Part shown: in pieces, positions 14,859 to 44,999 of the stretch
Position numbering within the stretch: position 1 is the stretch's first letter
How the letters are laid out: every line of letters starts with the position of its first letter
Virus record (IMG/VR): IMGVR_UViG_3300036770_008700
Coordinates: 1-64,000 of that record
Source: a virus
Direction: 5' to 3' (one strand)
Length of the DNA: 64,000 nucleotides
Program-made: the position numbers and the translations under genes
Notes under the pieces: generated by a model
The model's database searches: none
Seen by the model: only the letters and a program-made list of their open reading frames with translations
What the model was told of the DNA's origin: nothing

Positions 14859-14915
14859 ATATCATGTCCGGCCTACCCCCGGATAAACACCCGTGGCTCA
14901 AAGCCCAGCCCCCCT

Positions 14916-17966: not shown

Positions 17967-18043
17967 GTTCTAAGAATACCAAACGAGGAGGATTTTCTAA
18001 AGATTATTCTGATTTTTTTATTTCGCTGGAATTCCAGGGGTTT
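17967..18043 (-). repeat. 77 bp promoter repeat, copy 1
   Basis: Matches 18827-18903 at 76 of 77 positions. It contains the promoter, an A/T-rich upstream element, and the palindrome CTGGAATTCCAG (18026-18037) about 25 bp upstream of the -35. A related, more diverged version lies at 21276-21352. Confidence 0.85.
17973..18001 (-). promoter_or_regulatory. Leaderless-type promoter for radA-like gene
   Basis: Read on the minus strand: TTTAGA, 17 bp, TATTCT with TGG before it, then 6 nt (TAGAAC) to ATG 17966. The predicted +1 coincides with the start codon. Confidence 0.7.
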
Positions 18044-18067
18044 TCTGACGACGAGTGTTTCAGTTTT

Positions 18068-18268
18068 TCAGTCCCAATGCCAAGGATTGCCCATGTGATT
18101 GGTTCCAAACACCATATCATCATCACCAGCAACCATAAGCGCAAGCACCGCACGATCCCAACGACGACGATCACGATTGCTCTCATGCTTCAGAAGCGAA
18201 GAGCGAAAGAAATAGTTGCTCTTGAAATCTTGACGCTTCACATCGTTGCGCTGGTGGTTGATCTTCAT
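18068..18268 (-). CDS. Small basic hypothetical protein
   Basis: 66 residues. The start at 18268 is fixed by a leaderless-type promoter. The N-terminal half is basic (DVKRQDFKSNYFFR, NRDRRRWDR); the C-terminal half (MVFGTNHMGNPWHWD) is aromatic and His-rich. It appears monocistronic, with its own promoter. Unknown function; typical of early phage host-takeover genes (inference from position and expression signals). Confidence 0.6.
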   Translation of the reverse strand: MKINHQRNDVKRQDFKSNYFFRSSLLKHESNRDRRRWDRAVLALMVAGDDDMVFGTNHMGNPWHWD

Positions 18269-18311: not shown

Positions 18312-18806
18312 TCAGGAACAATCCTCGCAATCATGGGAATCGTCAACCATATCGTTCAAGTTGAAGATTTCCACAATAGTTTCCGGCAATCCTTCCAAAC
18401 CGTCGAAGGTGTATTCAATGTCGTTGTAATCCGTTACCTCGCCATTCTCAAACTCACCAGCGAAGCACATTCCACCCTCATGCCAGTACGCATGAACATC
18501 AAACCCATGATGTACAAGCTCACGGAACACACCAAGGGGAGGAGCCCATGCCGTGTCAACGTACCCACTAACGGTGTTGGCATCACCATCAAAATCGCCA
18601 CCAAAATCCCACTTTACACCCCAGTTTCCCACCCTCCAGTAAAACTCACTGTCAGAGAGAAAGCCCTGCTCGCCTTGAGGGAGCGAGGTATCTTGAGGGA
18701 AGAAAGTCTCTGCAATCTTTTCCTGCTTTGCAGCCTCGACAAACTTCTGGATCATCGCAGGGTCGTTGTGGGTGACGGTCACGTAGTTGCTGCACCAGTT
18801 CGGCAT
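18312..18806 (-). CDS. YubB/Api92-like protein (DUF1281-type)
   Basis: 164 residues. The opening MPNWCSNYVTVTH is the hallmark of the YubB/Api92 ferredoxin-like family found on phages and plasmids. Further family-like features are YWRVGNWGVKWD, a WAPPLGVFREL block, and HAYWHEGGMCFAGEF. The function of the family is unknown. It is preceded by AAAGGAAG, so unlike its neighbours it has a 16 nt SD-containing leader although its promoter is a near-exact copy of the radA one. Confidence 0.8.
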   Translation of the reverse strand: MPNWCSNYVTVTHNDPAMIQKFVEAAKQEKIAETFFPQDTSLPQGEQGFLSDSEFYWRVGNWGVKWDFGGDFDGDANTVSGYVDTAWAPPLGVFRELVHHGFDVHAYWHEGGMCFAGEFENGEVTDYNDIEYTFDGLEGLPETIVEIFNLNDMVDDSHDCEDCS

Positions 18807-18826
18807 TGTTCTTTCTTCCTTTCGAT

Positions 18827-18903
18827 GTTCTTAGAATACCAAACGAGGAGGATTTTCTAAAGATTATTCTGATTTTTTTATTTCGCTGGAATTCCAGGGG
18901 TTT
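18827..18903 (-). repeat. 77 bp promoter repeat, copy 2
   Basis: One mismatch to 17967-18043. It carries the same palindrome CTGGAATTCCAG at 18886-18897. Confidence 0.85.
18833..18861 (-). promoter_or_regulatory. Promoter with SD leader
   Basis: TTTAGA, 17 bp, TATTCT (TGG before it). In the radA copy ATG follows 6 nt later; here that triplet is ATC, and an SD (AAAGGAAG) plus ATG follow further down at 18806. Confidence 0.65.
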
Positions 18904-18928
18904 GAGAGCTTCTGACGGCAAAGGATTA

Positions 18929-19165
18929 TTACGATCCCAAGCGAGAGCGAAGCCTCGTCAAGGTCTTTTCGTTGTAAGGCAATGCCTCCCTGCACTCATT
19001 CGGTCGCATACGCTCTTGCTCAAAACAAACAAGAGCGTCTGTTCCAAGCGTTACCCGAAAGATGCTTCGACGTTCAAACCTGAGATAAACACCATCACCA
19101 TCATAATCAAGAAGATTGTCACTCAGAAGTCCGTCCAGATATGCCTTGATTGTTTCCTTGTTCAT
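18929..19165 (-). CDS. Small hypothetical protein
   Basis: 78 residues from ATG 19165, fixed by a promoter ending 6 nt upstream. It begins with a helix (NKETIKAYLDGLLSDNLLDY) followed by short strands (DGVYLRFERRSIFRVTLG). GC-richer than the KLY genes, like its neighbours. Family not recognised. Confidence 0.6.
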   Translation of the reverse strand: MNKETIKAYLDGLLSDNLLDYDGDGVYLRFERRSIFRVTLGTDALVCFEQERMRPNECREALPYNEKTLTRLRSRLGS

Positions 19166-19171
19166 GTTCTT

Positions 19172-19200
19172 ACCTTATCAGAGTGTTGGGAGTAAAGTCT
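19172..19200 (-). promoter_or_regulatory. Leaderless-type promoter (weak -35)
   Basis: Extended -10 TGATAAGGT, then AAGAAC and ATG 19165. At 17 bp spacing the -35 is AGACTT; a better TTTACT sits only 13 bp away. The extended -10 may compensate. Confidence 0.5.
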
Positions 19201-20861: not shown

Positions 20862-21275
20862 TCACCAAGGACGATCATCCATACCATCGCTGCTAAGACC
20901 ATTCCTCGCAGCAACAGTGCTGCCTGACTGCACCGGAGAAAACTTTACATGGGAGATTACAGGCTTTGCCTTGAAAATTTCACCGGTCTTCATGTTGTAA
21001 TAAATCACCTGATACCCTCTCGTTCCAAAGCTGAAACCGAAACCTGTCAACAAAAGACTCTCCAGCGCCCGACGCTTAACTTCTGCTTCATTGCAGGTAT
21101 AAATGCTGTGGTCTACACCACGAAGAGTGTTCCAACTAGTAAGCTCAAGCCATTCATGATTGGCATTAAACTTCGATGCCTTGTTAAGAGGATTGCTCTT
21201 CAAAAGATTTTCAATCACAGGATGAAGAGTTGTAGTCATGGGAGCCTTCTTGCTGGTCTTGCTCGTCTTCTTCAT
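20862..21275 (-). CDS. Hypothetical protein with basic N-terminal tail
   Basis: 137 residues. ATG 21275 is preferred because the promoter's predicted +1 falls on it; a longer in-frame start would lie upstream of transcription. It begins MKKTSKTSKKAPMTTT, a Lys/Thr tail like that of the RadA-like protein, then a globular part with FGFSFGTRGYQVIYYN. Family not recognised. Confidence 0.6.
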   Translation of the reverse strand: MKKTSKTSKKAPMTTTLHPVIENLLKSNPLNKASKFNANHEWLELTSWNTLRGVDHSIYTCNEAEVKRRALESLLLTGFGFSFGTRGYQVIYYNMKTGEIFKAKPVISHVKFSPVQSGSTVAARNGLSSDGMDDRPW

Positions 21276-21281
21276 GTTCTT

Positions 21282-21310
21282 AGAATACCACCCAATCATG
21301 ATTTTCTAAA
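21282..21310 (-). promoter_or_regulatory. Leaderless-type promoter
   Basis: TTTAGA, 17 bp, TATTCT with TGG before it, then AAGAAC and ATG 21275. An upstream 14 bp palindrome ACTGGAATTCCAGT (21334-21347) matches the palindrome of the 77 bp repeats. Confidence 0.7.
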
Positions 21311-21390
21311 GGATTATTTTCTTTTTTTATTTCACTGGAATTCCAGTGGTTTTTTGGTCATGCAGCTTGACTAGTCTAGGATTTAATCCC

Positions 21391-22390: not shown

Positions 22391-22728
22391 AGTTTGGTTA
22401 AGTGTATATGTGAGTATTGTGGATGGTTTACCACCATGTATTTTACTTCACCTTCTGATGTTAGGATTTTTAGGATATTGTTATTTAGGTGATTTAGTAC
22501 AACGAAGGTATTATTTGGGTACAAGGGTTTGATGGATGTGTTAGTTGTGTATCCATGTGTTTTGAAGTTGATATCTGTTGCTTTATGCATCATGTTTGCG
22601 GCGATATTTGGGTTTGAGAAGTATGTTAGTATTGCTTGAGCTGCCCGTTCTGGTGTTTCGAACAGCAGCCAAACGTTTTCACTGATTGTTTGGTACAATG
22701 CTCCTGAATCAAAGTTTGATGTATTCAT
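22387..22728 (-). CDS. KLY family protein
   Basis: 113 residues: SGALYQTI, FVVLNHL, LKILTSEGEVKYMVV. The usual GW after the turn is replaced by KY. A longer variable segment (about 20-65) carries helical sequence (ETPERAAQAILTYF). It overlaps the upstream gene by 4 nt. Confidence 0.7.
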   Translation of the reverse strand: MNTSNFDSGALYQTISENVWLLFETPERAAQAILTYFSNPNIAANMMHKATDINFKTHGYTTNTSIKPLYPNNTFVVLNHLNNNILKILTSEGEVKYMVVNHPQYSHIHLTKL

Positions 22729-23018
22729 TGATTTGCGTTTTTAATGAGTTTGAAAGTAGACTTGTCTAAGATAAGCCATCCAACAACTCCATTTGTTGTT
22801 AGCACTTTAACACAAAAAAGTGGTTGTCGTTTTGGGTGGGAAAAGCTTGTTTTATCTTTATCCAGCACGACAAAAGGTTGCAAGGCTTTGATTGTGTCAA
22901 CAGTGTCAACAAATCCATCATACCAACGATTATCTTTTGGATGGAATTGACGCATATCGAGATCGATTTTACAGGCATACAGTTTGCCTATTTGCAGGTT
23001 TTCTTGTGTTGTAATCAC
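22725..23018 (-). CDS. KLY family protein, GTG start
   Basis: 97 residues: IGKLYACK, PFVVLDKD, VKVLTTNGVVGWL. It starts at GTG 23018 and is preceded by its own leaderless-type promoter inside the KLY operon, so transcription is probably reinforced here. No Shine-Dalgarno site is visible. Confidence 0.7.
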   Translation of the reverse strand: MITTQENLQIGKLYACKIDLDMRQFHPKDNRWYDGFVDTVDTIKALQPFVVLDKDKTSFSHPKRQPLFCVKVLTTNGVVGWLILDKSTFKLIKNANQ

Positions 23019-23024
23019 ATTCTT

Positions 23025-23053
23025 AGTTTAACATGGTATAATCGGCACATAAA
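23025..23053 (-). promoter_or_regulatory. Internal leaderless-type promoter (GTG start)
   Basis: TTTATG, 17 bp, TAAACT with TGT before it, then AAGAAT and GTG 23018. It obeys the same 6 nt rule although the start codon is GTG, which argues that the spacing is selected. Confidence 0.55.
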
Positions 23054-23359
23054 CTAAATCTGTGTTTTGTCATAGGAAAACACATAAGGCAAATCACTAT
23101 CTTCAAGTGATAACCAACCTACTTCACCTGTTGTTGTTAGAATTTTTACACGATGGACATGGAACGTAGTTTTCTTGTATTTCCTATAGGCAAATATTAC
23201 AGTATGAAGCTCTAACGGAACAAAAGCAAGATCTGGTGATAGCAGTTTGTTTGTGCTTAGTGTGGCATCAGGTTGTTTTGGATCAACCATATCATACATT
23301 GCCATGTAATGTGGAATATGATATAAGCCGCCGAGTTTGATATCCGAGATATTTTTCAT
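23054..23359 (-). CDS. KLY family protein
   Basis: 101 residues: LGGLYHIP, AFVPLELH, VKILTTTGEVGWL. The variable middle is rich in Asp, Pro and Lys. It overlaps the upstream member by 4 nt (ATGA). Confidence 0.7.
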   Translation of the reverse strand: MKNISDIKLGGLYHIPHYMAMYDMVDPKQPDATLSTNKLLSPDLAFVPLELHTVIFAYRKYKKTTFHVHRVKILTTTGEVGWLSLEDSDLPYVFSYDKTQI

Positions 23360-23619
23360 GTTATGATTTCCTCAACGGTTTCACCTTCCCAAAAACGAAG
23401 ATAACCAACCAATCCAGTTTCTGTAAGCACTTTTACAAGAAAGGTTTCATGATACGTATCATGACGAATCACGCTACCAAGTGTTACAAAAGGTGATTGT
23501 TCTTCTATGCGGCCTAATAGATATAGTTTCTCCAAAGTCGGCTTTGTTGCGTCAGCGAGCAACGCTTTAGGAATATCGCAGCAGTATATTTTACCAACTT
23601 TTATTTCTTTGGGGTTCAT
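23356..23619 (-). CDS. KLY family protein
   Basis: 87 residues from ATG 23619, chosen over a longer frame because AAAGAG lies upstream and the family N-terminus starts here. Motifs: VGKIYCCD, PFVTLGS, VKVLTETGLVGYL. Confidence 0.7.
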   Translation of the reverse strand: MNPKEIKVGKIYCCDIPKALLADATKPTLEKLYLLGRIEEQSPFVTLGSVIRHDTYHETFLVKVLTETGLVGYLRFWEGETVEEIIT

Positions 23620-23629
23620 TAATACTCTT

Positions 23630-23902
23630 TCACTCTTTAAGTTCTTTGAACCAATGAGTGCCTGTTGTAAAGTATGCCCAACCAACTTGACCTTTACTTG
23701 TTAGAAGTTTGCAATACCAAGTCATCTTATTTGGATCTTGTTCCTTTTCTAATAGAACCAAACATTCCATAGAAACAAGACTTACTCCTTCTGGAGTAAT
23801 AAGAAGCCATATGTCGGTCATAGCTTCATTCATCATACTAAGCCATATACCTTTATAGAGCTTCCCAACTTCTAAATCTTCTGGAGATAAAGGCAATCTC
23901 AT
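23630..23902 (-). CDS. KLY family protein
   Basis: 90 residues: VGKLYKGI, CLVLLEKE, CKLLTSKGQVGWA. It overlaps the upstream member by 4 nt. The middle segment includes VSLVSMECLVLLEK, more hydrophobic than usual. Confidence 0.7.
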   Translation of the reverse strand: MRLPLSPEDLEVGKLYKGIWLSMMNEAMTDIWLLITPEGVSLVSMECLVLLEKEQDPNKMTWYCKLLTSKGQVGWAYFTTGTHWFKELKE

Positions 23903-24201
23903 GGTTGTGTTACTTGTTTGAAGCAGTAAGGATAATCAAATAGATCGTAATGAAGTTCTGAGGTCCAACCAATGTTACCAGATGTTGTAAGAAGTTTCAA
24001 GCAAAACTGACTATCATGGATTAGTTTTACTTCCAAGACAACAAACCAATCATTTGGTAAAAGCAATGAACCGTAGGTTGAATGTAGGTGTGCCCGAGCG
24101 TATATGGAATGAGGTTTTTTGAATAGTTCAATCGTGTTCATGCGTTCTTCAACCGTATCGTATAAGCCACCAACTTTTAGTTCATGAATATACGTATACA
24201 T
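23899..24201 (-). CDS. KLY family protein
   Basis: 100 residues: VGGLYDTV, WFVVLEVK, LKLLTTSGNIGWT. It overlaps the first gene of this operon by 20 nt. Confidence 0.7.
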   Translation of the reverse strand: MYTYIHELKVGGLYDTVEERMNTIELFKKPHSIYARAHLHSTYGSLLLPNDWFVVLEVKLIHDSQFCLKLLTTSGNIGWTSELHYDLFDYPYCFKQVTQP

Positions 24202-24517
24202 GCTTTACTTCCTCAATGCAACCCTTGGTCCATTCAGCGTCTTCTGGATAAAAAATCCAACCAATCTCTCCATTAGTCGTAAGAATCTTGCAAACCTTAT
24301 CCGTCTGTTCCAACAGCATAAACATGCTGTTTGGTTCAATATGAGAAACATTGCAGTTTAATCGATTGCTCCAATAATCAGTCCATCCTTCGGCGGCGCT
24401 CTCGACGACGGCGTAGGGGTTGGTTATGTCTGCGTGGGCGACGGCAGCAACAATATCCTTCGAAGGATAAAGCATCCAAAAGTATTTCTTGAACTGAAAA
24501 AGCTTTCCAATGTTCAT
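24182..24517 (-). CDS. KLY family protein with GC-rich linker
   Basis: 111 residues: IGKLFQFKKYFWMLYPSKDI, then an Ala-rich linker (about 24-45) encoded by unusually GC-rich DNA (24388-24452), then NCNVSHIEPNSMFMLLEQ and CKILTTNGEIGWI. It is much closer to the four genes at 40883-42061 than to its operon neighbours. First gene of an eight-member KLY operon, driven by a leaderless-type promoter. Confidence 0.75.
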   Translation of the reverse strand: MNIGKLFQFKKYFWMLYPSKDIVAAVAHADITNPYAVVESAAEGWTDYWSNRLNCNVSHIEPNSMFMLLEQTDKVCKILTTNGEIGWIFYPEDAEWTKGCIEEVKHVYVYS

Positions 24518-28799: not shown

Positions 28800-29106
28800 C
28801 TTGCTCCCATTCCTGTGTGCTTAAATAAATCGTGCCAATACTGGAATCTTCCAATAAAGCTATGACCCTACAGGAATTCTTTCCACTAAGCAAACTTCCA
28901 TTATGATGTGCTTTGTGCACTTCCAACACAACAATCCTTGAATCTAATGGAAAGTACTTGTAATCAACAACATCAATTTTGTAATACCTGTCATACCTGT
29001 CGAAAGAGATGTAGTGCACAAGATAACCTTTTTCGCCTGCTAGCCGATTATTTTGGATAGTTTTTTTTGCAGCGGCTGTTAAACCATACATCTTTCCAAC
29101 CATCAT
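28780..29106 (-). CDS. KLY family protein, divergent
   Basis: 108 residues: VGKMYGLT, helical AAKKTIQNNRL, RIVVLEVHK, VIALLEDSSIGTI, and a tail STQEWEQVE like its downstream neighbour. It overlaps the upstream gene by 4 nt. Confidence 0.65.
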   Translation of the reverse strand: MMVGKMYGLTAAAKKTIQNNRLAGEKGYLVHYISFDRYDRYYKIDVVDYKYFPLDSRIVVLEVHKAHHNGSLLSGKNSCRVIALLEDSSIGTIYLSTQEWEQVESIQV

Positions 29107-29417
29107 AGCTTACTCAACCTAACAACATTATCATAAGACCAAGGAGCGTGGTATGCATACCTAATCCAACCAATACCTCCAGAACTTAAAACCTTTACAA
29201 CTCTTTCTTCAACATCCAAAGGAACAAATAAATCGTCTGGCAAAAGAATTGAAATATTCGTGCCATAATAGTTTTTCAACTGTTTTGCTATGTGATTTGC
29301 ACTTTCTAAGTCATCATGATATGTGCCTGCCTTAGTACCATTGGCACATGCTAGCTTTTTGTCCTCATAACACAACCAATAATGAGTTTTAAATTTGTAA
29401 AGTTTTCCTACTTGCAT
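29103..29417 (-). CDS. KLY family protein
   Basis: 104 residues: VGKLYKFKTHYWLCYEDKKL, LFVPLDV, VKVLSSGGIGWI. With its upstream neighbour it belongs to the same subfamily as the 24182 and 40883-42061 genes (HYW/YFW after the first strand), but its linker is not GC-rich. Confidence 0.7.
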   Translation of the reverse strand: MQVGKLYKFKTHYWLCYEDKKLACANGTKAGTYHDDLESANHIAKQLKNYYGTNISILLPDDLFVPLDVEERVVKVLSSGGIGWIRYAYHAPWSYDNVVRLSKL

Positions 29418-29692
29418 ACAATTTCCTCAAAATATGGAAAACACCAGTCGTGATATGCAATCCAACCAATATCTCCATTTGGCAGCAGAACTTCTTTGCA
29501 AAGATTTCCCTCCTTAAGCAACACAACTACATCATTTGGTTTAAGATAGCTTGTGTGTGCGTTGAATTCCTTGGTCATCAAAGTAGATTCATAAACTGAA
29601 TAAGCACTAGGAGCAACCATTGCCATATGCCTATCAGGAAACACATACCAATAATGTCTCTTCACAGAATATAGCTTTCCAATGTTATCCAT
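29408..29692 (-). CDS. KLY family protein
   Basis: 94 residues: IGKLYSVKRHYWYVFPDRHM, VVVLLKE, KEVLLPNGDIGWI. First gene of a minus-strand operon, with a leaderless-type promoter. It overlaps the next gene by 10 nt. Confidence 0.7.
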   Translation of the reverse strand: MDNIGKLYSVKRHYWYVFPDRHMAMVAPSAYSVYESTLMTKEFNAHTSYLKPNDVVVLLKEGNLCKEVLLPNGDIGWIAYHDWCFPYFEEIVCK

Positions 29693-34582: not shown

Positions 34583-35025
34583 GTAAAGAAACATTTAAAC
34601 CATCAAAGAATGCTGCCGAAATGTTAGCAGAAATGCATGACATGAGTGATGAAGAACTTGAATGGTTTAGTGATATGGGAATGGGTATTGCTGCCACAAT
34701 GGAAGACTTAACCGCTCAAATTGAGAATCCACCAAAAAAGCGTGTTAAAGGCTGCGAAGTGATTCACTTGGGAGCAGAGTTGTTTTTACCAATGCGTGCC
34801 TTAAAACAAAGGCTAGAAGCCGGTGGTTTAGAACTAGAAGATTATGTCCGAGAACTTGACCAAATTGTTGATAGGTTGAGTTTTGTTGTAACAGAAAATC
34901 AAAAAGTACTAAGCAACCCCAAGGTTCGTAACCATATGAAACAATTAGCAAACGCTGTTGTGCTTCACCTGGAAGCTGGTCCAGTGCTCAATAATATGTT
35001 TGGTATTCTTAGTCAAGAACAGTGA
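34579..35025 (+). CDS. Helical hypothetical protein
   Basis: 148 residues from ATG 34579, coupled to the previous gene. Strongly acidic helical N-terminus (AEMLAEMHDMSDEELEWFSD) and long C-terminal helices (LKQRLEAGGLELEDYVREL). No catalytic motif is visible. It converges on the minus-strand structural-like pair. Confidence 0.65.
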   Translation: MSKETFKPSKNAAEMLAEMHDMSDEELEWFSDMGMGIAATMEDLTAQIENPPKKRVKGCEVIHLGAELFLPMRALKQRLEAGGLELEDYVRELDQIVDRLSFVVTENQKVLSNPKVRNHMKQLANAVVLHLEAGPVLNNMFGILSQEQ

Positions 35026-35044
35026 CAGGTCATGTTTTGTTCAA

Positions 35045-35479
35045 CTACCCCAATCCTGGCGAATAAACGATAAAGTTTTCAAAACTAGCTGAACCTGTGT
35101 GATAAGGGTCACTTGCATTAAATGTGAATGACCCCGTAAGCGTTGGTATGCTTGCTGTTGGAATGCCTGTTAATCCAGCTAAAATCTGAAAATTAACTGA
35201 TCCGCTGCCACTTGGTTTCTTAAGATATATTTCTTTTACACGAACTTCAAATGTAGCATATCCATTGCTACCGATTGTAAAATGATTGGAATTACTGACT
35301 CCGAACGCTGTAAATCCAACATCTAAAGAACTAGTATTGGAATGAATCGTTATAAACTTGGTAACGTAGGGAAAGCTTATTTTAACTGGCGTTGTTGAAG
35401 CAGATGATGCTGTAACATATGGCAAACCAGATGCTAGGTAAGCTGGAACATCATTATAGCCGGGAGAGGGATATTGCAT
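35045..35479 (-). CDS. Beta-sandwich virion-type protein, copy A
   Basis: 144 residues, Ser/Thr/Gly-rich, all beta. SFPYVTKFITIHSN, VGFTAFGVSNSNHF and FEVRVKEIYLKK align with the downstream-strand neighbour. The ending ILAGLTGIPTASIPTLTGSF is nearly identical in both. These features suggest a capsid decoration, fibre or neck protein. Confidence 0.7.
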   Translation of the reverse strand: MQYPSPGYNDVPAYLASGLPYVTASSASTTPVKISFPYVTKFITIHSNTSSLDVGFTAFGVSNSNHFTIGSNGYATFEVRVKEIYLKKPSGSGSVNFQILAGLTGIPTASIPTLTGSFTFNASDPYHTGSASFENFIVYSPGLG

Positions 35480-35482
35480 AAA

Positions 35483-35902
35483 TCAACCGATACCTTCATA
35501 AGTTAAAACATTAGTGAATGAATTGCTGCCAGTAAAATAAGGATCAGACGAGCTAAATGGATATGAGCCTGTGAGTGTTGGAATGCTTGCTGTTGGAATA
35601 CCTGTTAATCCAGCAATGATATGAAAAGTATGAGCACCATCAATATACATTTCTTTTACTCGAACTTCAAATGTAACGGTATCATTGTTGGAAATACTGA
35701 AATAGTTTGTCCCTGCAACACCGTTTGCTGTGAATCCAATCTTTAAAGATCCACCGTCAGCTTTCACTGTAATAAACTTGGTCACGTAAGGAAACTGCAC
35801 ATGATATGCAGGTGCTGATGTTGCGGTGCCTGTGAGAGCATATGGTAGTCCAGAAATTTGATAAGCTGGAGTAAAGTTAAAGCCGGGCTGTGGCCATTGC
35901 AT
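35483..35902 (-). CDS. Beta-sandwich virion-type protein, copy B
   Basis: 139 residues, paralogous to copy A: QFPYVTKFITVKADGGSLKI, GFTANGVAGTNYFSI, FEVRVKEMYIDG, and the shared GLTGIPTASIPTLTGS. The gap between the two genes is 3 nt. Same likely role: a surface-exposed structural protein. No clear promoter is seen. Confidence 0.7.
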   Translation of the reverse strand: MQWPQPGFNFTPAYQISGLPYALTGTATSAPAYHVQFPYVTKFITVKADGGSLKIGFTANGVAGTNYFSISNNDTVTFEVRVKEMYIDGAHTFHIIAGLTGIPTASIPTLTGSYPFSSSDPYFTGSNSFTNVLTYEGIG

Positions 35903-35969
35903 GTTGCTTATACCTTTTTTGTTGGTTGAACATAACTATTCAATAAACCAGAAAAGGATTTACAATCTC

Positions 35970-36092
35970 ATGCATGACAAACTTACTCTAGAAAAATGTT
36001 GCTCTGTGTTCGGTGACTCAAAATGGGCACCCCTCGCTGGCTTCCTAGCGGTTACAGAAGGTCTGCAAACCCTACACCACAGTCATCACTAA
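35970..36092 (+). pseudogene. N-terminal fragment of a Dps-like gene
   Basis: 40 residues: FGDSKWAPLAGFLAVTEGLQ and TLHHSHH match FGPNEYAPLAAFLAATEALQ and MIAHSHH of the intact protein at 36736. The frame stops right after HSHH, at the site where the minus-strand HNH gene ends. The codons have diverged considerably, so it is not a recent copy. It keeps an AAAAGGA site and ATG, so a short peptide could still be made. Confidence 0.65.
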
Positions 36093-36691
36093 CCTTCCCA
36101 TCTATTGTTCTTTTTCAAGTTATCAAACGCTGGAAGAGGTTGTAAATTTTCAAGAGCCCAGCACGCTTTAAACTCTGATGAATCTGTCGAATCGTAATTA
36201 AACCAAGAATCTGGTCTTATGTGGTCGATATGCCAATAAGTTCCATGATTTTCCCACGACATTTCTGGCGTAAATTGTTTTTCTAAATGTTCTTTTAACT
36301 GCTCTAAAGTGTAACCTACAAGATCAATCCAGCTTGTCCTATTTTTCGTTAAAAATCTAGTTTTAAGAGCATGGTTCATTCGTCTGCTCATGTTTTCTCT
36401 TAAACGAAACTGTGGATCAGTTGCTCTTCTTATTCTATTTTGTTCGTTCAGTTGTTCTTTTAATCTTTCACGACGTTCACGTTGCTTTTGAACGTAATGA
36501 TCTCTTCGTTTATGTCTGATTTCTTTCTTTTTCTCACGCAGTTTAACTTTGTTTTTTTGACAATATTCACGGCATGGCTCTTTTCTGCAAATTTTGCATA
36601 TGCTAAGATGGCCATCTTTTGATTTTTTATTTTTGTGATAATCAGTTAATGGTTTTTCAATCGAACACGAACTGCACTTTTTCAACGTCAT
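36089..36691 (-). CDS. HNH homing endonuclease
   Basis: 200 residues. An N-terminal zinc ribbon (CSSCSIEKPLTDYHKN, CKICRKEPC) and a very basic linker (KLREKKKEIRHKRRDHYVQK) lead to the HNH core: YWHIDHIRPDSWF, then WALENLQPLPAFDNLKKNN. It sits between a Dps-like gene fragment and the intact Dps-like gene, so that gene is its probable target. TATAGATAGG upstream of ATG may be a late-type promoter. Confidence 0.88.
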   Translation of the reverse strand: MTLKKCSSCSIEKPLTDYHKNKKSKDGHLSICKICRKEPCREYCQKNKVKLREKKKEIRHKRRDHYVQKQRERRERLKEQLNEQNRIRRATDPQFRLRENMSRRMNHALKTRFLTKNRTSWIDLVGYTLEQLKEHLEKQFTPEMSWENHGTYWHIDHIRPDSWFNYDSTDSSEFKACWALENLQPLPAFDNLKKNNRWEG

Positions 36692-36735
36692 ATACCTATC
36701 TATAAGTATTCTAAAAATAACTTAAAGGGATTTAT

Positions 36736-37233
36736 ATGGACAGTATTGATAATGTTTGGGAATCTATGGTTGAGATCTTTGGTCCAAATGAATATGCACC
36801 ATTAGCTGCATTTTTAGCTGCTACAGAAGCTCTTCAAATGATAGCGCACAGTCACCATTGGCAAACCAAAGGTGAAAACTTCTATGGCGATCACCTTCTT
36901 TATCAACGTCTGTATGAAGCTATCCTGCCTGAGATAGATTTGATTGGTGAAAAACTGATTGGTGTCAGCCAAGATGTTTCTCTTACCAACTACTTCAAAC
37001 GTGTTAAAGCAATGGAAATGTTTCTTAAAGCTGTAACACACAGCGATCAACCATATATTGTTGTAAGCCATGATGCAGAACTAACATACGTTCGTATGGG
37101 TGGCGAACTAATGGACCAACTAGAACAAGCTGGTTTGCTCACAAGAGGCTTGGAACAAATGCTAGGCAACGTTCTTGACAAACATGAAGAACATATCTAC
37201 TTGCTTGACCAAAGAGTTAAAAGCAACAAATGA
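36736..37233 (+). CDS. Dps/ferritin-like protein
   Basis: 165 residues with AAAGGGA upstream of ATG. HSHHWQTKGENFYGDHLLYQ followed by RLYEAILPEIDLIGEKLI is the Dps-type ferroxidase region (H...D...E on two helices). A four-helix bundle is likely. Dps proteins store iron and protect DNA from oxidants; in a phage it might be a virion-associated or host-protective factor. It overlaps the next gene by 4 nt. Confidence 0.7.
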   Translation: MDSIDNVWESMVEIFGPNEYAPLAAFLAATEALQMIAHSHHWQTKGENFYGDHLLYQRLYEAILPEIDLIGEKLIGVSQDVSLTNYFKRVKAMEMFLKAVTHSDQPYIVVSHDAELTYVRMGGELMDQLEQAGLLTRGLEQMLGNVLDKHEEHIYLLDQRVKSNK

Positions 37234-37856
37234 AACTATATCCAATATTATTTGAGCAACAAGAAACAGAGCATCCTTTCTCTCCAGAGTTGTTTGATGC
37301 TTTAAAAGAGTTTGTTGACAAAAACAATATTGAAAAGCTTGAAGCATTGATGCCAGAAATTAAAGAGTTGGTTTCATCAAACAAGTATCCAAATATAACA
37401 GATCCAAGTGATGTTAAAGTATATCGTGGAATGAAAATCAGCTTTAAACGAGCAGAAGAGCTATGCAAAACTTATCAATGCATAGAAGAAGAAACAAGTA
37501 AAAACAACGTTGTTTATAAGACGTTTAAAGGTTCTGTTGTTGTTCCTACTAAACGTAACGTACAAAGTTGGTCTGGAAATGTTAACGTTGGCATTCAATT
37601 TGCTATGGACCCAGAAATTGGTGGTGAAGTTCCAATCGTGTTCTCGGCAATAGCTTCAAAAGACAAGTTTTTCGGTAAGCCGGGAGAAATTGCAAGAATT
37701 GTTTTGCCAAGACGAGCGAGTGAAATGGAAACAATATCTATTTCTCCAGTAGAATCAGATGGTTTTGTTTTGGCAATTCCACCAGATGATTTCTTTGGAA
37801 GGAATCCAAGTTTAACCGATCCATATACCCTCAAGAAATTGACTTTAAAGCTCTGA
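37230..37856 (+). CDS. Tagged ADP-ribosyltransferase-like protein
   Basis: 208 residues, beginning MKLYPILFEQQETE, the consensus tag. VKVYRGMKISFKRAEEL supplies the Arg of an R-S-E ART, NVQSWSGNVNVGIQFAMD the SxS strand and following helix, and EMETISISPVESDGFVLAIP the late acidic strand. This is the clearest ART in the window. With the tag, an injected host-modifying enzyme is an attractive guess. Translation is coupled to the Dps-like gene (ATGA). Confidence 0.72.
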   Translation: MKLYPILFEQQETEHPFSPELFDALKEFVDKNNIEKLEALMPEIKELVSSNKYPNITDPSDVKVYRGMKISFKRAEELCKTYQCIEEETSKNNVVYKTFKGSVVVPTKRNVQSWSGNVNVGIQFAMDPEIGGEVPIVFSAIASKDKFFGKPGEIARIVLPRRASEMETISISPVESDGFVLAIPPDDFFGRNPSLTDPYTLKKLTLKL

Positions 37857-37888
37857 AATTATTTTGACACAAAAGGAGTATAAAACCC

Positions 37889-38542
37889 ATGCTTTTGTCT
37901 GATATATGGAAACTTCAAGGTTCGGCAAAACAAGAACAAGCATTGTTAGAAGAGCTAACTAAAGCTCCACTGGTGTTTAAAGAAGTAACGTTGCAAGACG
38001 CAACCAACGTTTTAGTTCTTCAAGTTACAAATGATTACTTGTGCTTGGAAACCATAAGAGTTTCCTTGTTGCCAGCAACAGCTCAAAAAGTTGCCAACCA
38101 TTTCAATTGTATACTTCCAACCAAAAACCTTGTTGATAAGATTTGGAAAGCTTGTGACTTAAAGTTAAACCCAAAGTCTATGTCAACCAATCGTGGTTCT
38201 TATGACACACTCAAAGCACACAATGACTCAATAAATACTCAAGTAAACAACCGAGAGTTTGTTTTGATTGGTGGTCATAAGAAAGACATTGTAATCAATA
38301 GCAAAATGCCAAAAGGCAAAGTAATCATATATGGCTGGCATTACCCTAATGGTAAACCTATTCAACCAGAAACAACTGTTCATGGTGATTTCTACAAAGA
38401 CTATTCACATGGAACAAGACTTGTAAGTAAAACTGTAATGTTGAATGGTGAAGTTAAAAATATCTGGGATGTGATTAACAGTGCTGTTTGGGAAAAACTG
38501 GTTGGAGATAAACCCTTTTTAGAAACTGGATATAGAGTTTAA
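37889..38542 (+). CDS. Conserved protein of unknown function
   Basis: 217 residues with AAAGGAG about 10 nt upstream of ATG. The C-terminal half has a recognisable conserved block: LIGGHKKDIVINSKM, VIIYGWHYPNGKPIQP, VHGDFYKDYSHGTRLVSKT. The His/Asp residues (GHKKD, VHGD, DYSHG) could form an active site. I have a sense of this block in phage and bacterial hypothetical proteins, but know no function. Confidence 0.7.
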   Translation: MLLSDIWKLQGSAKQEQALLEELTKAPLVFKEVTLQDATNVLVLQVTNDYLCLETIRVSLLPATAQKVANHFNCILPTKNLVDKIWKACDLKLNPKSMSTNRGSYDTLKAHNDSINTQVNNREFVLIGGHKKDIVINSKMPKGKVIIYGWHYPNGKPIQPETTVHGDFYKDYSHGTRLVSKTVMLNGEVKNIWDVINSAVWEKLVGDKPFLETGYRV

Positions 38543-38575
38543 ACTTTATCCTTTTGTTTTAAGAACAAATTTAGG

Positions 38576-38677
38576 TTATTTGGTGGTTCGCAATCCACCA
38601 ACACAAATGACCCACGAATCTGTGGCGTCTTTCATTTCTGTGTTGTGGATTTTAGTTGTGTTTGGTTTTCCAATTTT
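38576..38677 (-). pseudogene. C-terminal fragment of a RuvC-like gene
   Basis: The minus strand reads KIGKPNTTKIHNTEMKDATD and SWVICVGGLRTTK, then stop. This aligns without gaps to KTGKSANQEVFNSEMKDACD and AWVVVVGGKRL, the C-terminus of the intact RuvC-like protein at 39739-40299. There is no start codon. It lies directly downstream of the GIY-YIG gene, and includes the 7 bp hairpin TTGGTGG/CCACCAA (38580-38601), which may also serve as a terminator. Confidence 0.75.
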
Positions 38678-38690
38678 CAGTATATTGTTT

Positions 38691-39716
38691 TTACTCAATA
38701 CTGTTTGTGGGCAAAGTTGTAGAAACATTTTCTTTCTCTTCCTGATCTAATAAAATCCAACCCTTATAAGCCTTTCTTTTACCTTTAATCAAATCATGCA
38801 TTGATGATTGAGACAAACCATGTTCTTTGCAGAATTGGTTTAGGTTTGAAATAGGTCCAAAAACTTTATTTGTTGGGGATTGAATTCTCACATCATATGT
38901 ATTGCTTATTTTTGAGATTCTGTCAGTTTTTATTGAATCTTTTGTGATATGCTTATTTTCCAAAAGTCTCCAACCTTGGCAAATTTTAGCATAGCCATTA
39001 ATCATTGATCTAAAGTTTTTATCATTGATTCCATGCTCTCTGCAAAATGCTCTAAGATTAGTGATAGGACCATACTCTTTATTATTCGGGCACACAACCC
39101 GCACATCGTATACTTTTTGTAATTTTTGAGCTAGTAAATCTTTTGCTGGAATGTATGGAATGTCTTTATTTATTGCTAATCTCCAACCTTTACAAGTTTT
39201 TACTTTACCCTTTCTTAACTGCAAAAGATGCGAATAAAATATGTTGTTTTCTATGCAAAATTTACGTAAGTTAACCACCGACACAAATTTACCATTTGGA
39301 TCAATCAAATCTACTGATAGTTTTTTCTTGGAATTCGACAACTTTTGTTTAGTTTGCTCTGAGAGTTTTAAACCCAAATTAGAATAAGCAGTTGGATTAA
39401 TATTGTAACATTCATTTTGATTGTCATAATATTGATCAAGCCAATATTGCTCTCTCTGAACGATGTTGTCAACAGTGCAATGTTCTAAAACACGCATCTC
39501 AAAACTATCAAAATACTTCAAGTATTCTTTTTGCAGGTAAGGGCTTGCTCGTCCTTTTCTTAAATTTGTATTATGCACCCCAAGTCTTTTGGTAATCGAC
39601 AAACAACTTCCTATGTAAATTTTATTGTTTCTGACATTGCGTATTTGGTATATGGCTGGTGTTTTTGGAGTGTATTCACCATTCAATATAATTGGCCCTA
39701 GTAATCTTCTTGTCAT
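38691..39716 (-). CDS. GIY-YIG homing endonuclease with three DNA-binding repeats
   Basis: 341 residues. The catalytic domain (about 18-110) has AIYQIRNVRNNKIYIGSC (GIY-YIG motifs), KRLGVHNTNLRKG with catalytic Arg region, and EQYWLDQY with the metal-binding Glu. Then come three homologous repeats of about 60 residues, each with an N-terminal strand, a helix-turn-helix-like NLRxFCxEHG segment and a xGWRLL ending (about 135-180, 205-255, 275-325). A promoter-like TATAAC lies 12 nt before ATG. Confidence 0.9.
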   Translation of the reverse strand: MTRRLLGPIILNGEYTPKTPAIYQIRNVRNNKIYIGSCLSITKRLGVHNTNLRKGRASPYLQKEYLKYFDSFEMRVLEHCTVDNIVQREQYWLDQYYDNQNECYNINPTAYSNLGLKLSEQTKQKLSNSKKKLSVDLIDPNGKFVSVVNLRKFCIENNIFYSHLLQLRKGKVKTCKGWRLAINKDIPYIPAKDLLAQKLQKVYDVRVVCPNNKEYGPITNLRAFCREHGINDKNFRSMINGYAKICQGWRLLENKHITKDSIKTDRISKISNTYDVRIQSPTNKVFGPISNLNQFCKEHGLSQSSMHDLIKGKRKAYKGWILLDQEEKENVSTTLPTNSIE

Positions 39717-39738
39717 GCGAGATAAGTAGTTATACCAT

Positions 39739-40299
39739 TTATTTTATCCCGTCAAGTCTCTTTCCTCCAACGACAACCACCCATGCATCACAAGCATCTT
39801 TCATTTCCGAGTTAAAAACTTCTTGATTGGCACTTTTACCTGTTTTTGCCACATGTTTTTTCCAAGGAAATTCTGGATGTAGTGCTGTGATAAAATCAAA
39901 CACTTTCTCTTTAACGGGACGTTTATCGGCTTTGTTATTCTTAAACCCTACAGCTTTTCTAGCAGAAGTTACGTTAACATCAACAACTTCTGCATTAAAA
40001 GCTTTATGGGAAAGATAGGAAATGATTCCATTAAATTTTGATAAGACTGCAAGTGTATCTGCGCTGCTAAAACCCTTACTAAACATCTTAGCATTAGCTT
40101 CAACATAGATACGTTCTACTTTTTTATCACCAACTAGTTTCTTTATCTCTTCAATACCTCTATCTGCTTTGTCCCACATAGTATGTAGTGTGCTGGAAGT
40201 CAATTTTACAGCATCAAATACAACAACTTGTTCATTTTCATCAACCAAACAAACTCCAGTGCAACTCGTGCTGATATCAAGTCCTAAGAAATATTTCAT
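39739..40299 (-). CDS. RuvC-like Holliday junction resolvase
   Basis: 186 residues from ATG 40299, supported by AAAGGA upstream. An RNase H-like fold is seen: YFLGLDISTSCTGVCLVD (first Asp), RIYVEANAKMFSKGF (Glu), and SEMKDACDAWVVVVGG (last two acidic residues). This is the poxvirus/phage RuvC layout. It would resolve branched DNA before packaging and may act with the RadA-like ATPase. Confidence 0.78.
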   Translation of the reverse strand: MKYFLGLDISTSCTGVCLVDENEQVVVFDAVKLTSSTLHTMWDKADRGIEEIKKLVGDKKVERIYVEANAKMFSKGFSSADTLAVLSKFNGIISYLSHKAFNAEVVDVNVTSARKAVGFKNNKADKRPVKEKVFDFITALHPEFPWKKHVAKTGKSANQEVFNSEMKDACDAWVVVVGGKRLDGIK

Positions 40300-40325
40300 A
40301 TTGATTCCTTTAACATCCCAAACAA

Positions 40326-40841
40326 TCATTCGTCATAAACCTCGCAACCATAAAGACGCCTAATCTTGTCAACTGATTGCTTTGGAATCTTGCACGTATA
40401 ACTTACTTGATAGCAATCTTTGTTTGAAGCAGCTAAAACTACATGGTCTTTCCATGTTGGCTTCATGTTAAGAAACTCAACACCTAGTTGCTGTTGAAAC
40501 AACTCAACAACAGCATTTACCCAGCCCCAGCCGGTTTTAAATGCCATTTGCTTGCCTCGTGGAATATTAATGTTTAGTCGTTGTGTTTTGTAACCAGCAA
40601 TGGTTTCATTCGACCATACAGCTTCATTCAAAGCAATCCAATCATTATTCGAGGTACGTGAGTATGCAGCCGCAAAATCCTTGAGACGACGACCTACTTG
40701 AACATAACATTGTTCTGGCAAAGCATCTACTAATGCTTTTCTTTGCTCGGTCATTGCTTGCTCAAGTGTTGAGTAAAAGTTAACTGTAGTGATTGCTTTG
40801 TCTTTATTGCCAACAAGCATGTAATACGATTTTTGAATCAT
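40326..40841 (-). CDS. Hypothetical protein
   Basis: 171 residues with TAAGGAG upstream of ATG. Starts with a strand-rich section (YYMLVGNKDKAITTVNFYS) and continues with a helix, then GKQMAFKTGWGWVNAVVELF. No catalytic motif is visible. The 26 nt gap to the RuvC-like gene suggests co-transcription. Family not recognised. Confidence 0.65.
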   Translation of the reverse strand: MIQKSYYMLVGNKDKAITTVNFYSTLEQAMTEQRKALVDALPEQCYVQVGRRLKDFAAAYSRTSNNDWIALNEAVWSNETIAGYKTQRLNINIPRGKQMAFKTGWGWVNAVVELFQQQLGVEFLNMKPTWKDHVVLAASNKDCYQVSYTCKIPKQSVDKIRRLYGCEVYDE

Positions 40842-40882
40842 AATGGTGACTCCTTACGCTAAGTTATCACACACGTTTTTCT

Positions 40883-41185
40883 TTATAAACCAATATCAAA
40901 ACATTCATTATCACACCAATCATCAGGAACAAAAATCCATCCAAGCTGTCCATTGTTTGAAAGAACTTTTAAACAATTTCTATCTCGCTCAATCAAACAG
41001 AATATACTCTTTGGTTCAAGATAAGAAACGTTGCAGTTTAAATGAAATGAATAATATTTGGCTGCATCGCTGGTGTCTCGAAGACTACATCGTCGAATAG
41101 CAATGCTGCTGTGTAGGATACTATCTTTTGAAGGATACAACAACCAAAAGTATTCCTTGATTTGATAAAGCTTTCCAACATTCAT
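40883..41185 (-). CDS. KLY family protein
   Basis: 100 residues: VGKLYQIKEYFWLLYPSKDS, NCNVSYLEPKSIFCLIER, LKVLSNNGQLGWI. Last of four tandem, closely related members. Its linker is not especially GC-rich. It overlaps the upstream member by 4 nt. Confidence 0.75.
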   Translation of the reverse strand: MNVGKLYQIKEYFWLLYPSKDSILHSSIAIRRCSLRDTSDAAKYYSFHLNCNVSYLEPKSIFCLIERDRNCLKVLSNNGQLGWIFVPDDWCDNECFDIGL

Positions 41186-41475
41186 TGGTTTACTTCCTCA
41201 ATATAGTTCTTGTCCTTGTAAAAATCAGAAAGATAAATCCAACCAAGCTCACCATTAGTTGAAAGGATTTTACAGAACTTACCATCTTGCTCCAAAAAAC
41301 AGAAAATGCTTTTTGGAGAAATATATGAAACGTTGCAGTTATATTCCTTGCTATAATAAGCGGCGGCGGAGGCGGTGGTGTCGAGGGAGGCGAAGAGGAA
41401 GGCGTCAGCAATATCCTTTGAAGGATAAAGTAACCAAAAATACTTCTTGACTTGATAAAGCTTTCCGATGTTCAT
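41182..41475 (-). CDS. KLY family protein with GC-rich linker
   Basis: 97 residues: IGKLYQVKKYFWLLYPSKDI, an Ala/Thr linker (ADAFLFASLDTTASAAAYY) encoded by GC-rich DNA at 41360-41411, NCNVSYISPKSIFCFLEQ, CKILSTNGELGWI. Four-base overlaps on both sides. Confidence 0.78.
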   Translation of the reverse strand: MNIGKLYQVKKYFWLLYPSKDIADAFLFASLDTTASAAAYYSKEYNCNVSYISPKSIFCFLEQDGKFCKILSTNGELGWIYLSDFYKDKNYIEEVNQ

Positions 41476-41768
41476 TGATTTACTTCCTCAATATCGGCTT
41501 TGCACCAATCAGCAAGATTAATCCAACCAAGTTCTCCATTAGTTGAAAGAATCTTGCAACAATACCCATCTTGTTCCAAGAGCATAAAAATGCTGTTTGG
41601 AAAAATATATGAAACGTTGCAGTTGAAACGCTTGCTATAATAATCAGCGCCCTCTACGGCTTCGGTGAAGGAGGCTCCAGCAACAGCGGGGTAGGTGGCG
41701 ACTTCATCCTTTGAAGGAAAAAGAAACCAAAAGTATTTCTTGGCTTGATAAAGCTTTCCAACATTCAT
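41472..41768 (-). CDS. KLY family protein with GC-rich linker
   Basis: 98 residues: VGKLYQAKKYFWFLFPSKDE, a linker TYPAVAGASFTEAVEGADYY (GC-rich DNA at 41646-41702), NCNVSYIFPNSIFMLLEQ, CKILSTNGELGWI. Outside the linker it is nearly identical to its neighbours. Confidence 0.78.
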   Translation of the reverse strand: MNVGKLYQAKKYFWFLFPSKDEVATYPAVAGASFTEAVEGADYYSKRFNCNVSYIFPNSIFMLLEQDGYCCKILSTNGELGWINLADWCKADIEEVNQ

Positions 41769-42061
41769 TGATTTACTTCCTCAATGCAACCCTTTGCCCA
41801 ATCTTTATTTTTTGGATAAATGATCCAACCAAGTTCTCCGTTGGTTGAAAGAATCTTGCAAAATCGTCCATCTTGTTCCAAAAAACAGAAAATGCTTTTT
41901 GGAGAAATGTATGAAATATTGCATTTGAAATACGTGCTCCAATAATCAGCAACAGCGGCGGTGGCGGCGGCGGCCAGATCGTCTTCGGCGGCAGCAATCT
42001 CCTTTGAAGGAAAAAGGAGCCAAAAATACTCCTTGACTTGATAAAGCTTTCCAACATTCAT
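41765..42061 (-). CDS. KLY family protein with GC-rich linker
   Basis: 98 residues from ATG 42061, fixed by a leaderless-type promoter. VGKLYQVKEYFWLLFPSKEI, an Ala-rich linker (AAAEDDLAAAATAAVADYW; GC-rich DNA at 41950-41997), CNISYISPKSIFCFLEQ, CKILSTNGELGWI. First gene of the four-member cluster. Confidence 0.78.
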   Translation of the reverse strand: MNVGKLYQVKEYFWLLFPSKEIAAAEDDLAAAATAAVADYWSTYFKCNISYISPKSIFCFLEQDGRFCKILSTNGELGWIIYPKNKDWAKGCIEEVNQ

Positions 42062-42067
42062 GAATCC

Positions 42068-42096
42068 AGTATACCACATGGAAAAATGAATATAAC
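42068..42096 (-). promoter_or_regulatory. Leaderless-type promoter of KLY cluster
   Basis: GTTATA, 17 bp, TATACT with TGG before it, then GGATTC and ATG 42061. The -10 and spacer end resemble those of the 24517 promoter, whose gene is the closest relative outside the cluster. Confidence 0.65.
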
Positions 42097-44015: not shown

Positions 44016-44999
44016 TTACAGTATATTCATCTCTTCTAACGTTTGTTTTGTTAGCAGTTTATAAGCATCGATCCCATTTGCTCGACAATACTCTTCGGCT
44101 GCTAACTGCTTTTGCTTAACTTTTTCAGATTCTGAATAAGCTGCTGGCTTGATTTCCCAAAGTTCTTTCCGTCCATCGGTATATTCAATCAGAAAATCTG
44201 GAATATATCGTCGAGCATGTTCTCTGTTTCCTTCGTTTAGTTTGTAGCAGATCACGAACGGTTCATATGTAAACGTTCTAACTGTCAGTTCTTTATCCAA
44301 CCATTCAACTACTGCTTTTTCCCAAGATGACCGATAAAAGACTTCGTTGCCCAATTTTTCAGAAAAAACGTGTCCATTTTTGTGGAAGTTTTTCCCATAG
44401 GCTTGACGCTTTCCTGCAACCATTTCTGAAGAAACAATCTCTGACATTTTTTGTCTAGTCTCTAGTGAATGGTTTTTGCCGTACATCGGATTTCTCTCTC
44501 CACTGAAACAAGCTGTATCTTTATGATGTTTTGAGATTTTTTCTTTTGCTTCCTTTGTATGATGTTTACCAAACATAGGATGTTTCGTTTTGTCTTTCAG
44601 TCTCTCAGTCATAGAAGCACTAAGTTTTCCTTTTACTTCATCGTCCATTCGTGCATTATTAGGAATCAAACCTTCTCTAATCGCCGCACCACGACAAGGT
44701 TTGCTACAAAAATGATGTACGAACTTAGCGATCTGATTTTTCCATTGCAAAACCAACTTTTTGCAATAAAAACATTCAATTTCTGCTTTTCTGGGAGAGG
44801 GCTTATAACTTTTTTCCATAACTCTTCGATGTGCATATGCACATTCAAGTTTACAATAATGATTTTTGTTCTTTAGTTGCTTGTATTCCAGCTTTTTTGG
44901 AGTAAAAACAGTGTGGCAAAAATCACACTCGAAAACAACAATTCGTCGCTTTTGTTTTGGTTTACCAACAACGGCTTCCATCTTGTCTTCTATTATCAT
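44016..44999 (-). CDS. Homing endonuclease: zinc ribbons, NUMOD3 repeats and TnsA-like nuclease
   Basis: 327 residues with AGAGGTGAG upstream. Two zinc-ribbon modules (CDFCHTVFTPKK, CFYCKKLV, with CKLEC and CSKPC partners), two NUMOD3-like motifs (HPMFGKHHTKEAKEKIS, NPMYGKNHSLETRQKMS), then a PD-(D/E)XK domain: FYRSSWEKAVVEWLDKEL, RRYIPDFLIEYTDGRKELWE. The nuclease resembles the phage protein at 42099. Probably a free-standing late-region homing enzyme. Confidence 0.85.
   Translation of the reverse strand: MIIEDKMEAVVGKPKQKRRIVVFECDFCHTVFTPKKLEYKQLKNKNHYCKLECAYAHRRVMEKSYKPSPRKAEIECFYCKKLVLQWKNQIAKFVHHFCSKPCRGAAIREGLIPNNARMDDEVKGKLSASMTERLKDKTKHPMFGKHHTKEAKEKISKHHKDTACFSGERNPMYGKNHSLETRQKMSEIVSSEMVAGKRQAYGKNFHKNGHVFSEKLGNEVFYRSSWEKAVVEWLDKELTVRTFTYEPFVICYKLNEGNREHARRYIPDFLIEYTDGRKELWEIKPAAYSESEKVKQKQLAAEEYCRANGIDAYKLLTKQTLEEMNIL

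Follow-up and report, generated by a model that had tools for sequence, protein, structure and literature searches.

Stranded gene ends beside free-standing nuclease genes suggest homing-type elements that replace the ends of phage genes

Two nuclease genes of a phage are probably free-standing homing-type elements, each of which brings along a second version of one end of its target gene, with the result that this gene becomes a chimera and its old end is left stranded; we put the probability of this reading at roughly 0.84. The proposal centers on two genes, one ruvC-like and one dps-like, in a single window, meaning the whole 64,000-base stretch of DNA that was analyzed (bases 1-64000 of a 122,895-base virus record). 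At both genes, an endonuclease gene sits beside, not inside, an uninterrupted host gene. The ruvC locus is laid out as follows.

37889-38542, plus strand: convergent neighbor gene, an open reading frame (ORF) whose stop faces the ruvC fragment and which anchors the argument from position
38576-38692, minus strand: stranded ruvC 3' end, in-frame C-terminal codons with their own stop and without a start
38691-39716, minus strand: free-standing GIY-YIG endonuclease gene, 341 amino acids, with repeated C-terminal modules
39739-40299, minus strand: full-length ruvC-like Holliday junction resolvase gene, 186 amino acids from the ATG at 40299
39739-39861, minus strand: 3' end of the ruvC gene, starting at about codon 147, a probable import along with the endonuclease gene

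The full-length gene codes for a RuvC-like resolvase, as evidenced by a family profile (phrog_159 RuvC-like, E=8.4e-13 in a profile search) together with conserved acidic residues, of which D8, E67, D168, and D171 are invariant across five aligned sequences. In RuvC, the corresponding acids are catalytic. No Pfam family matched the protein at 0.01, and an in-frame upstream ATG would extend the start of the gene to 40329. The stretch that appears to have been replaced carries the last two conserved acids, D168 and D171, and so loss of this end without a replacement would be expected to kill the enzyme. The neighboring GIY-YIG protein has the catalytic domain of its family (PF01541, E=6.4e-10, 39.6 bits against a cut-off of 22.6) and also matches phrog_2081 (3e-28) and phrog_314, a homing endonuclease family (1.4e-24).

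An initial annotation of this DNA had drawn attention to a startless piece of the RuvC C-terminus beyond the GIY-YIG gene. Its coordinates and letters for the ruvC gene, the GIY-YIG gene, and the fragment were confirmed, and the matches that it singled out (TEMKDATDSW with SEMKDACDAW and VGGLR with VGGKR) are correct, belonging to an alignment in which 16/30 residues are identical without a gap. The homology runs over 38588-38692, and the stop codon occupies 38576-38578 on the minus strand. The GIY-YIG gene ends on the fragment, its stop codon overlapping the codon with which the alignment begins (the tblastn residue at 38692). Upstream, the reading frame of the fragment extends back to an ATG at 38728, within the GIY-YIG gene, and the homologous part itself has no start of its own. 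The resemblance is significant against shuffled controls: the best ungapped BLOSUM62 score in the 198 bases past the endonuclease gene is 96, while 400 dinucleotide shuffles gave a mean of 22.9, a standard deviation of 3.3, and a maximum of 34. A tblastn search of the RuvC-like protein against the 122,895-base record recovered its gene and, at E=1e-6, the fragment, with nothing further at E<=0.001. Third codon positions of the two copies agree at only 15/30, which indicates that they are diverged alleles and not a fresh duplication. On the far side, 33 bases separate the stop of the fragment from the stop of the convergent gene. The RuvC-like protein had no match among 50,697 phage records at E<=1e-5, and probing genome_contigs with six exact peptides found no relative.

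The same annotation had described a mirrored arrangement nearby, in which the opposite end of a dps gene is preserved beside an HNH gene. That arrangement is real as well: with a score of 100, the dps fragment exceeds all 400 dinucleotide shuffles, the highest of which reached 45. Its features are as follows.

35483-35902, minus strand: gene upstream of dps, 71% identical to its counterparts in the relatives L003 and L004, where it has the same place
35970-36089, plus strand: stranded native 5' end of dps, 40 codons, cut off after HHSHH
36089-36691, minus strand: HNH/endonuclease VII-like gene, 200 amino acids (phrog_1035, E=1.4e-24)
36736-37233, plus strand: full-length dps-like gene, a chimera in which codons 1-41 (36736-36858) are foreign and the remainder native

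The stop codon of the HNH gene shares one base with the last codon of the dps fragment, and the HNH protein matched no Pfam family at 0.01. The dps-like protein matches phrog_3636 (3.9e-11), while its Pfam scores, 17.9 bits for Ferritin and 27.2 bits for DUF5856, are both below the cut-offs.

Comparison with relatives shows that the dps gene is a chimera, with a native body, a foreign 5' end in use, and the fragment as its native end, because the fragment matches the relatives while the gene's own N-terminus does not. After HSHH, 116/118 residues of the gene are identical to L003, against 19/28 in the 28 residues before (p=4.5e-6). The fragment is identical to L004 at 34/40 residues and to L003 at 33/40, whereas among the best 30 of 51 dps loci no close match to the gene's own N-terminus was found, the best being 21/41 identical residues in L109. 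The gene at 35483-35902 adjoins the dps fragment in the window, and its counterpart in L003 and L004 adjoins the intact dps. Composition is of no help for the direction of replacement at dps, since the fragment, at 48.3% GC, is the part that differs from the body (39.7%), and the end within the gene (39.2%) does not. Across the 51 dps loci, the sole off-gene matches were weak, 12 residues long, and on the opposite strand, in L136 and L137.

Relatives with empty sites also inform the ruvC case. The close relatives L003 and L004 (seen again as L012 and L011) and the more distant L014 have both ruvC and dps, and no nuclease gene or fragment was seen between or beside the two genes in these three. 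The distance between the stops of ruvC and the convergent gene is 0 bases in L003 and 4 in L004, and in L014 the two genes overlap by 12 bases; in the window, the fragment has the position at which ruvC ends in these relatives. The gene content of the interval from dps to ruvC differs among the window, L003, L004, and L014, and the convergent neighbor is not always the same gene; by eye, its homologue in L014 lies between dps and ruvC without adjoining ruvC. One gene of this interval, at 37230-37856 on the plus strand, has a relative in the corresponding position in L004 and, by eye, in L014; it matched no family in the Pfam and phrog searches, and its YRG, SWS, and ExE-like motifs are reminiscent of an ADP-ribosyltransferase. 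Beyond ruvC lie a TnsA-like small nuclease gene (PF08722; 42099-42530, minus strand) and a 327-amino-acid gene with a related C-terminal domain (44016-44999, minus strand), homologues of both being near ruvC in L003.

The window's ruvC is likely a chimera with a foreign tail, as suggested by an abrupt loss of similarity toward its 3' end. Nucleotide identity falls from 0.793 over codons 1-150 to 0.615 over codons 151-182 against L004 (p=3e-4) and from 0.793 to 0.563 against L003 (p=6.5e-6), and third-position identity to L004 falls from 91/150 to 10/32 (p=0.003). For the protein sequence, the comparison with L003 gives a significant drop (p=0.002), and the comparison with L004 does not (p=0.08). 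Counted from codon 152, protein identity drops by 0.279 (L003) and 0.157 (L004), which exceeds every tail-minus-body drop in 25 comparison pairs of similar divergence (-0.132 to +0.216). The differences between the ruvC genes of L003 and L004 also lie mainly in the 3' part. The fragment is no nearer to the empty-site relatives (14/30 residues identical to each of L003 and L004) than to the full gene (16/30), and the base-composition profile of the gene is not decisive; that the fragment is the native end is likely from its position and by analogy with the other cases. The initial annotation had called this gene intact, and full length it is, but the end in use was likely imported.

A second ruvC case supports the analogy. 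L026 and L027 are identical across the region and are counted once; both have a ruvC-like gene, a GIY-YIG gene, and then a 16-codon ruvC C-terminus, and their GIY-YIG gene is homologous to that of the window across 240 residues (E=5e-40). Against the empty sites of L020, L022, L024, L025, and L029, the fragment matches at 36-41/48 bases and 12-16/16 residues, compared with 29-36/48 bases and 9-12/16 residues for the tail in the full gene. The DNA past the fragment resembles the DNA downstream of ruvC in these five relatives, clearly so in 4/5. Sequence comparison at this locus thus identifies the fragment as the native end and the end in use as foreign. The scan that bears on this case covered 87 records (the best 80 of 519 relatives, several records being repeat views of one contig) and returned six matches, namely the window in three views, L026, L027, and a weak opposite-strand match in L047.

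The two close relatives L003 and L004, which lack the nuclease genes, differ from each other at the same points. They are 97-98% identical here, and their mismatches gather in patches at L003 416-442, facing L004 6073-6099, and in a ruvC part at L003 818-1000, facing the corresponding ruvC part of L004. Around dps, a 27-base stretch with the H|W codon at its end holds 9/17 of the mismatches found over 817 bases (p=9e-10); the dps fragment of the window ends at this codon, and 5/7 of the changed codons are synonymous. Near the ruvC point, 7/19 mismatches lie within 30 bases (p=0.003), where the five changed codons are, by eye, not synonymous; a second cluster of seven lies 41-67 bases upstream. 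These intervals were drawn after inspection of the data and come from a single sequence pair. We read the patches as putative conversion scars or recoded cut sites.

How general is the arrangement? Surveys of nuclease relatives used a flank test, in which a same-strand protein-level match (E<=1e-3) was sought between the 1.5 kb on either side of the nuclease gene, lying no more than 100 bases away on one side and no more than 700 on the other, a nearness rule added after a looser first test. The HNH survey took the best 80 of 446 relatives, giving 77 testable loci, of which 8/77 matched in the raw count against 14/478 other ORFs of the same loci (p=0.006); on inspection L197 was discarded, leaving 7/77. 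For GIY-YIG genes there was no excess, with 1/68 testable loci (of 76) against 6/372 controls. Pooled, the test gave 9/145 against 20/850 (p=0.027), counts that include near-copies of the same loci and so have smaller effective numbers. Among the 14 HNH controls, L165, L166, L178, L182, and L196 read as pairs of nuclease genes, and several more read as low-complexity frames. Of the six GIY-YIG controls, three likewise look like nuclease-gene pairs, and another, L250, itself shows the arrangement. The looser test without the nearness rule had found no excess (5/77 against 8/132 shifted positions). An earlier set of 13 HEG loci, two of them too short and some on the same contigs, had the arrangement in 0/11, and 20 endonuclease genes from 15 phage records picked from two listings had it in 0/20. 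The cases that the surveys added are these.

L159, nrdB: HNH case in which the start side of the nuclease gene adjoins the fragment
L163, a gene of 61 amino acids: HNH case
L187 and L232, uvdE: HNH cases, with just 12 and 9 matching residues
L217, DNA ligase: HNH case, with 346 bases between nuclease gene and fragment and 95 unrelated residues ahead of the fragment
L223, pyrimidine dimer glycosylase: HNH case in which the start side of the nuclease gene adjoins the fragment
L224, prohead protease: HNH case, a short match 412 bases away
L238, terL (named by tblastn): GIY-YIG case
L250, dnaC-like gene (named by tblastn): a GIY-YIG gene behind it, then a repeated dnaC-like C-terminus

In L238, the body of terL has 54.4% GC, the tail in the gene 30.4%, and the fragment behind the GIY-YIG gene 56.5%, a composition that marks the gene as a chimera and the fragment as native. 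Composition profiles of L159, L163, L217, L223, and L250 are not decisive, and for the L159, L238, and L250 genes, the phage relatives among the matches listed (eight each) are too distant to settle which end is native. The total is twelve cases, namely ruvC and dps here, L026/L027, and nine others, all on metagenome-derived contigs. Ten further cases thus support the suggestion that free-standing enzymes, presumably by homing, generally act in a way that strands a piece of the target gene. As a general mechanism, it recurs across viruses but is a minority arrangement, at 7/77 for HNH genes, 1/68 for GIY-YIG genes, and 0/20 for genes from phage records.

The annotation had also proposed a scan for flanking fragments elsewhere in the genome. 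A scan of the record with 162 non-overlapping ORFs returned the ruvC and dps cases but no third; its other matches within 8 kb were mostly between predicted genes, as tandem paralogues or shared domains. The ORFs at 12439-13791 and 14312-14860 share only a leader-like start and have, by eye, an ordinary ORF and no recognized nuclease between them, and they were rejected. So was a match of the ORF at 18806-19195 to 17967-18092 and 21273-21353, as it reflects a repeated intergenic, promoter-like element and not a gene. This element, about 70 bases long, lies upstream of three minus-strand genes (17967-18092, about 18820-18900, and 21273-21353) and is probably a phage promoter. Elsewhere in the window, a tandem family of proteins of about 100 amino acids, some with variable alanine-rich stretches, occupies 40883-42079 (minus strand), 22725-24517, and 29103-29692. 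Finally, a DnaE-like DNA polymerase is encoded in two pieces (2389-4263, 4223-5185, and 5121-7370, plus strand, including a gene of 320 amino acids between them), of which the first ends intein-N-like and the second starts intein-C-like (...THN|S). This arrangement looks like a split-intein "fractured gene," and the 320-amino-acid gene has what we take to be a VSR/EDxHD-type nuclease likeness.

We propose the following course of events. The enzyme would cut the native gene within a conserved motif. The broken end of the main body would then be repaired from a donor with its own gene end and nuclease gene, joining the body to the donor end, and the other broken end, the old native one, would be attached straight to the opposite side of the nuclease gene. 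In both window cases the fragment is joined at the stop codon of the nuclease gene, but L159 and L223 have it next to the start side, so the orientation is not fixed. The gene would stay functional with a changed and presumably cut-resistant end, while the stranded native end might serve as a second homology arm in a later round of homing, as in the model for WHO elements. A chimeric host gene with a foreign end, and the old end beyond the endonuclease gene, is what comparison or composition shows for dps, for the ruvC of L026/L027, and for the terL of L238, and it is likely for the window's ruvC. The searches found no donor that pairs either nuclease with the corresponding gene end; the best HNH relative found is 43% identical, and the only GIY-YIG relative found in the single-protein search is 28% identical.

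Illegitimate entry of a foreign segment, bringing a gene end and a passenger nuclease gene whose enzyme did no cutting, is the most serious competitor, although we consider it unlikely. Nuclease genes do occur at exchange boundaries in phages, according to the available portions of one paper (PMC10448857), and flanking copies are also found beside other genes (the 14/478 and 6/372 above). Such mosaic recombination sits poorly with joins that interrupt conserved motifs in two genes of the same 4-kb stretch, with fragments only 0-10 bases from nuclease genes in several cases, and with the mismatch patches that HEG-free relatives have at the same points.

Tandem duplication of part of ruvC or dps, with the nuclease gene inserted later between the copies and nothing foreign involved, would account for the two copies of a gene end that flank each nuclease gene, and it is consistent with the 16/30 residues shared by the ruvC fragment and gene, no fewer than the fragment shares with relatives. 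We regard it as very improbable, since the dps fragment resembles the N-terminus of relatives and the gene's own N-terminus does not, the tail of the L238 gene differs in composition from both body and fragment, and the L026/L027 fragment is the native one. The initial annotation spoke of a "shadow exon," and its wording does not fit: no intron was found, and the full gene needs no splicing. That the fragments are alternative or second exons of a gene split by an intron or intein deserves almost no credence, even if the same genome has the two DnaE-like pieces with intein-like ends and a gene between. Both ruvC and dps are complete without the fragments, and there is, by eye, no intein-like sequence near them. 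No Rfam match was found up to E=1 in 35000-41000, nor any at the gathering score in L159, L217, L223, L238, and L250, and the nuclease genes thus do not qualify as intron-encoded.

End replacement by free-standing homing-type elements, the reading we prefer, resembles designs known outside phages. As described in the available parts of Coughlan 2020 (PMC7282813), WHO elements at FBA1 in Torulaspora and Lachancea yeasts share with the window cases a free-standing endonuclease gene beside the host gene, the absence of splicing, remaining fragments of the old gene end (3' in WHO), and a chimeric host gene. Their enzymes are intein-related zinc-finger fusion proteins of yeast nuclei, in contrast to the GIY-YIG and HNH genes of a phage, and they are clustered and affect the 3' end, whereas both 3' and 5' ends are affected here and clusters were not seen (PMC7282813, same parts). 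The elements in the window may work like a WHO element, by analogy, but are not one, as their nuclease families, GIY-YIG and HNH/endonuclease VII, set them apart from WHO elements proper.

Mobile ORFs also make gene hybrids in fungal mitochondria, according to the parts available of Beaudet 2013 (PMC3630166), which cites the Allomyces atp6 case. There, as here, the C-terminus is duplicated around an endonuclease ORF, the native C-terminus is displaced downstream, and the foreign one is in use, in one case (atp9) with a GIY-YIG enzyme; unlike here, the setting is mitochondrial DNA, only C-termini are involved, and the enzymes in the other three genes are LAGLIDADG (PMC3630166). For T4-like phages, the accessible text of PMC2988022 describes intronless homing and split genes, including the seg and mob genes and Aeh1 nrdA. 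As in the window, free-standing GIY-YIG and HNH genes insert into functionally critical gene regions, and the co-conversion of flanking DNA may be likened to the window cases; the split genes consist of two pieces that are both used, and that text describes no replaced end or stranded old end (PMC2988022). Neither do the available parts of a T4 review (PMC2993671), the phage nuclease-boundary paper (PMC10448857), the F-CphI paper (PMC6083498), and the Skunavirus HNH paper (PMC12724721) mention replaced ends with stranded old ends.

Searches of the open-access literature, which takes in only a minority of subscription journals, turned up no account from phages of an exchanged gene end together with its stranded predecessor. 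Dassa in 2009 reportedly described fractured genes in which split inteins occur with a free-standing endonuclease gene. They are said to have, as here, an endonuclease gene lodged in a conserved gene whose function is kept, through protein trans-splicing of two halves there and through a new gene end here. As far as could be seen, the novelty lies in the occurrence of this design in phages, in its use of GIY-YIG and HNH nucleases, and in its action at 5' ends.

Free-standing phage homing genes are known between genes, in introns or inteins, or splitting a gene into pieces that are used. The arrangement described here would add a further low-cost way to inhabit a conserved gene, namely to bring the missing end along, and it would account for chimeric phage gene ends and for stranded scraps near nucleases. 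It also suggests a simple way to search, by looking for nuclease genes that have one and the same gene end on either side, and it marks likely cut sites within a few bases. More broadly, we lean slightly toward the idea that phages carry a class of homing elements, built on at least two nuclease families, that cut a conserved gene and supply a cut-resistant 3' or 5' end, with the old end as a homology arm. If so, the design would tie phages to the homing described, in the parts of the papers available, from yeast nuclei and fungal mitochondria, and the short mismatch patches in relatives that lack the nuclease genes would be scars from attacks after which repair did not bring the element in. 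Such elements would then drive the chimeric evolution of phage replication, packaging, and repair genes.
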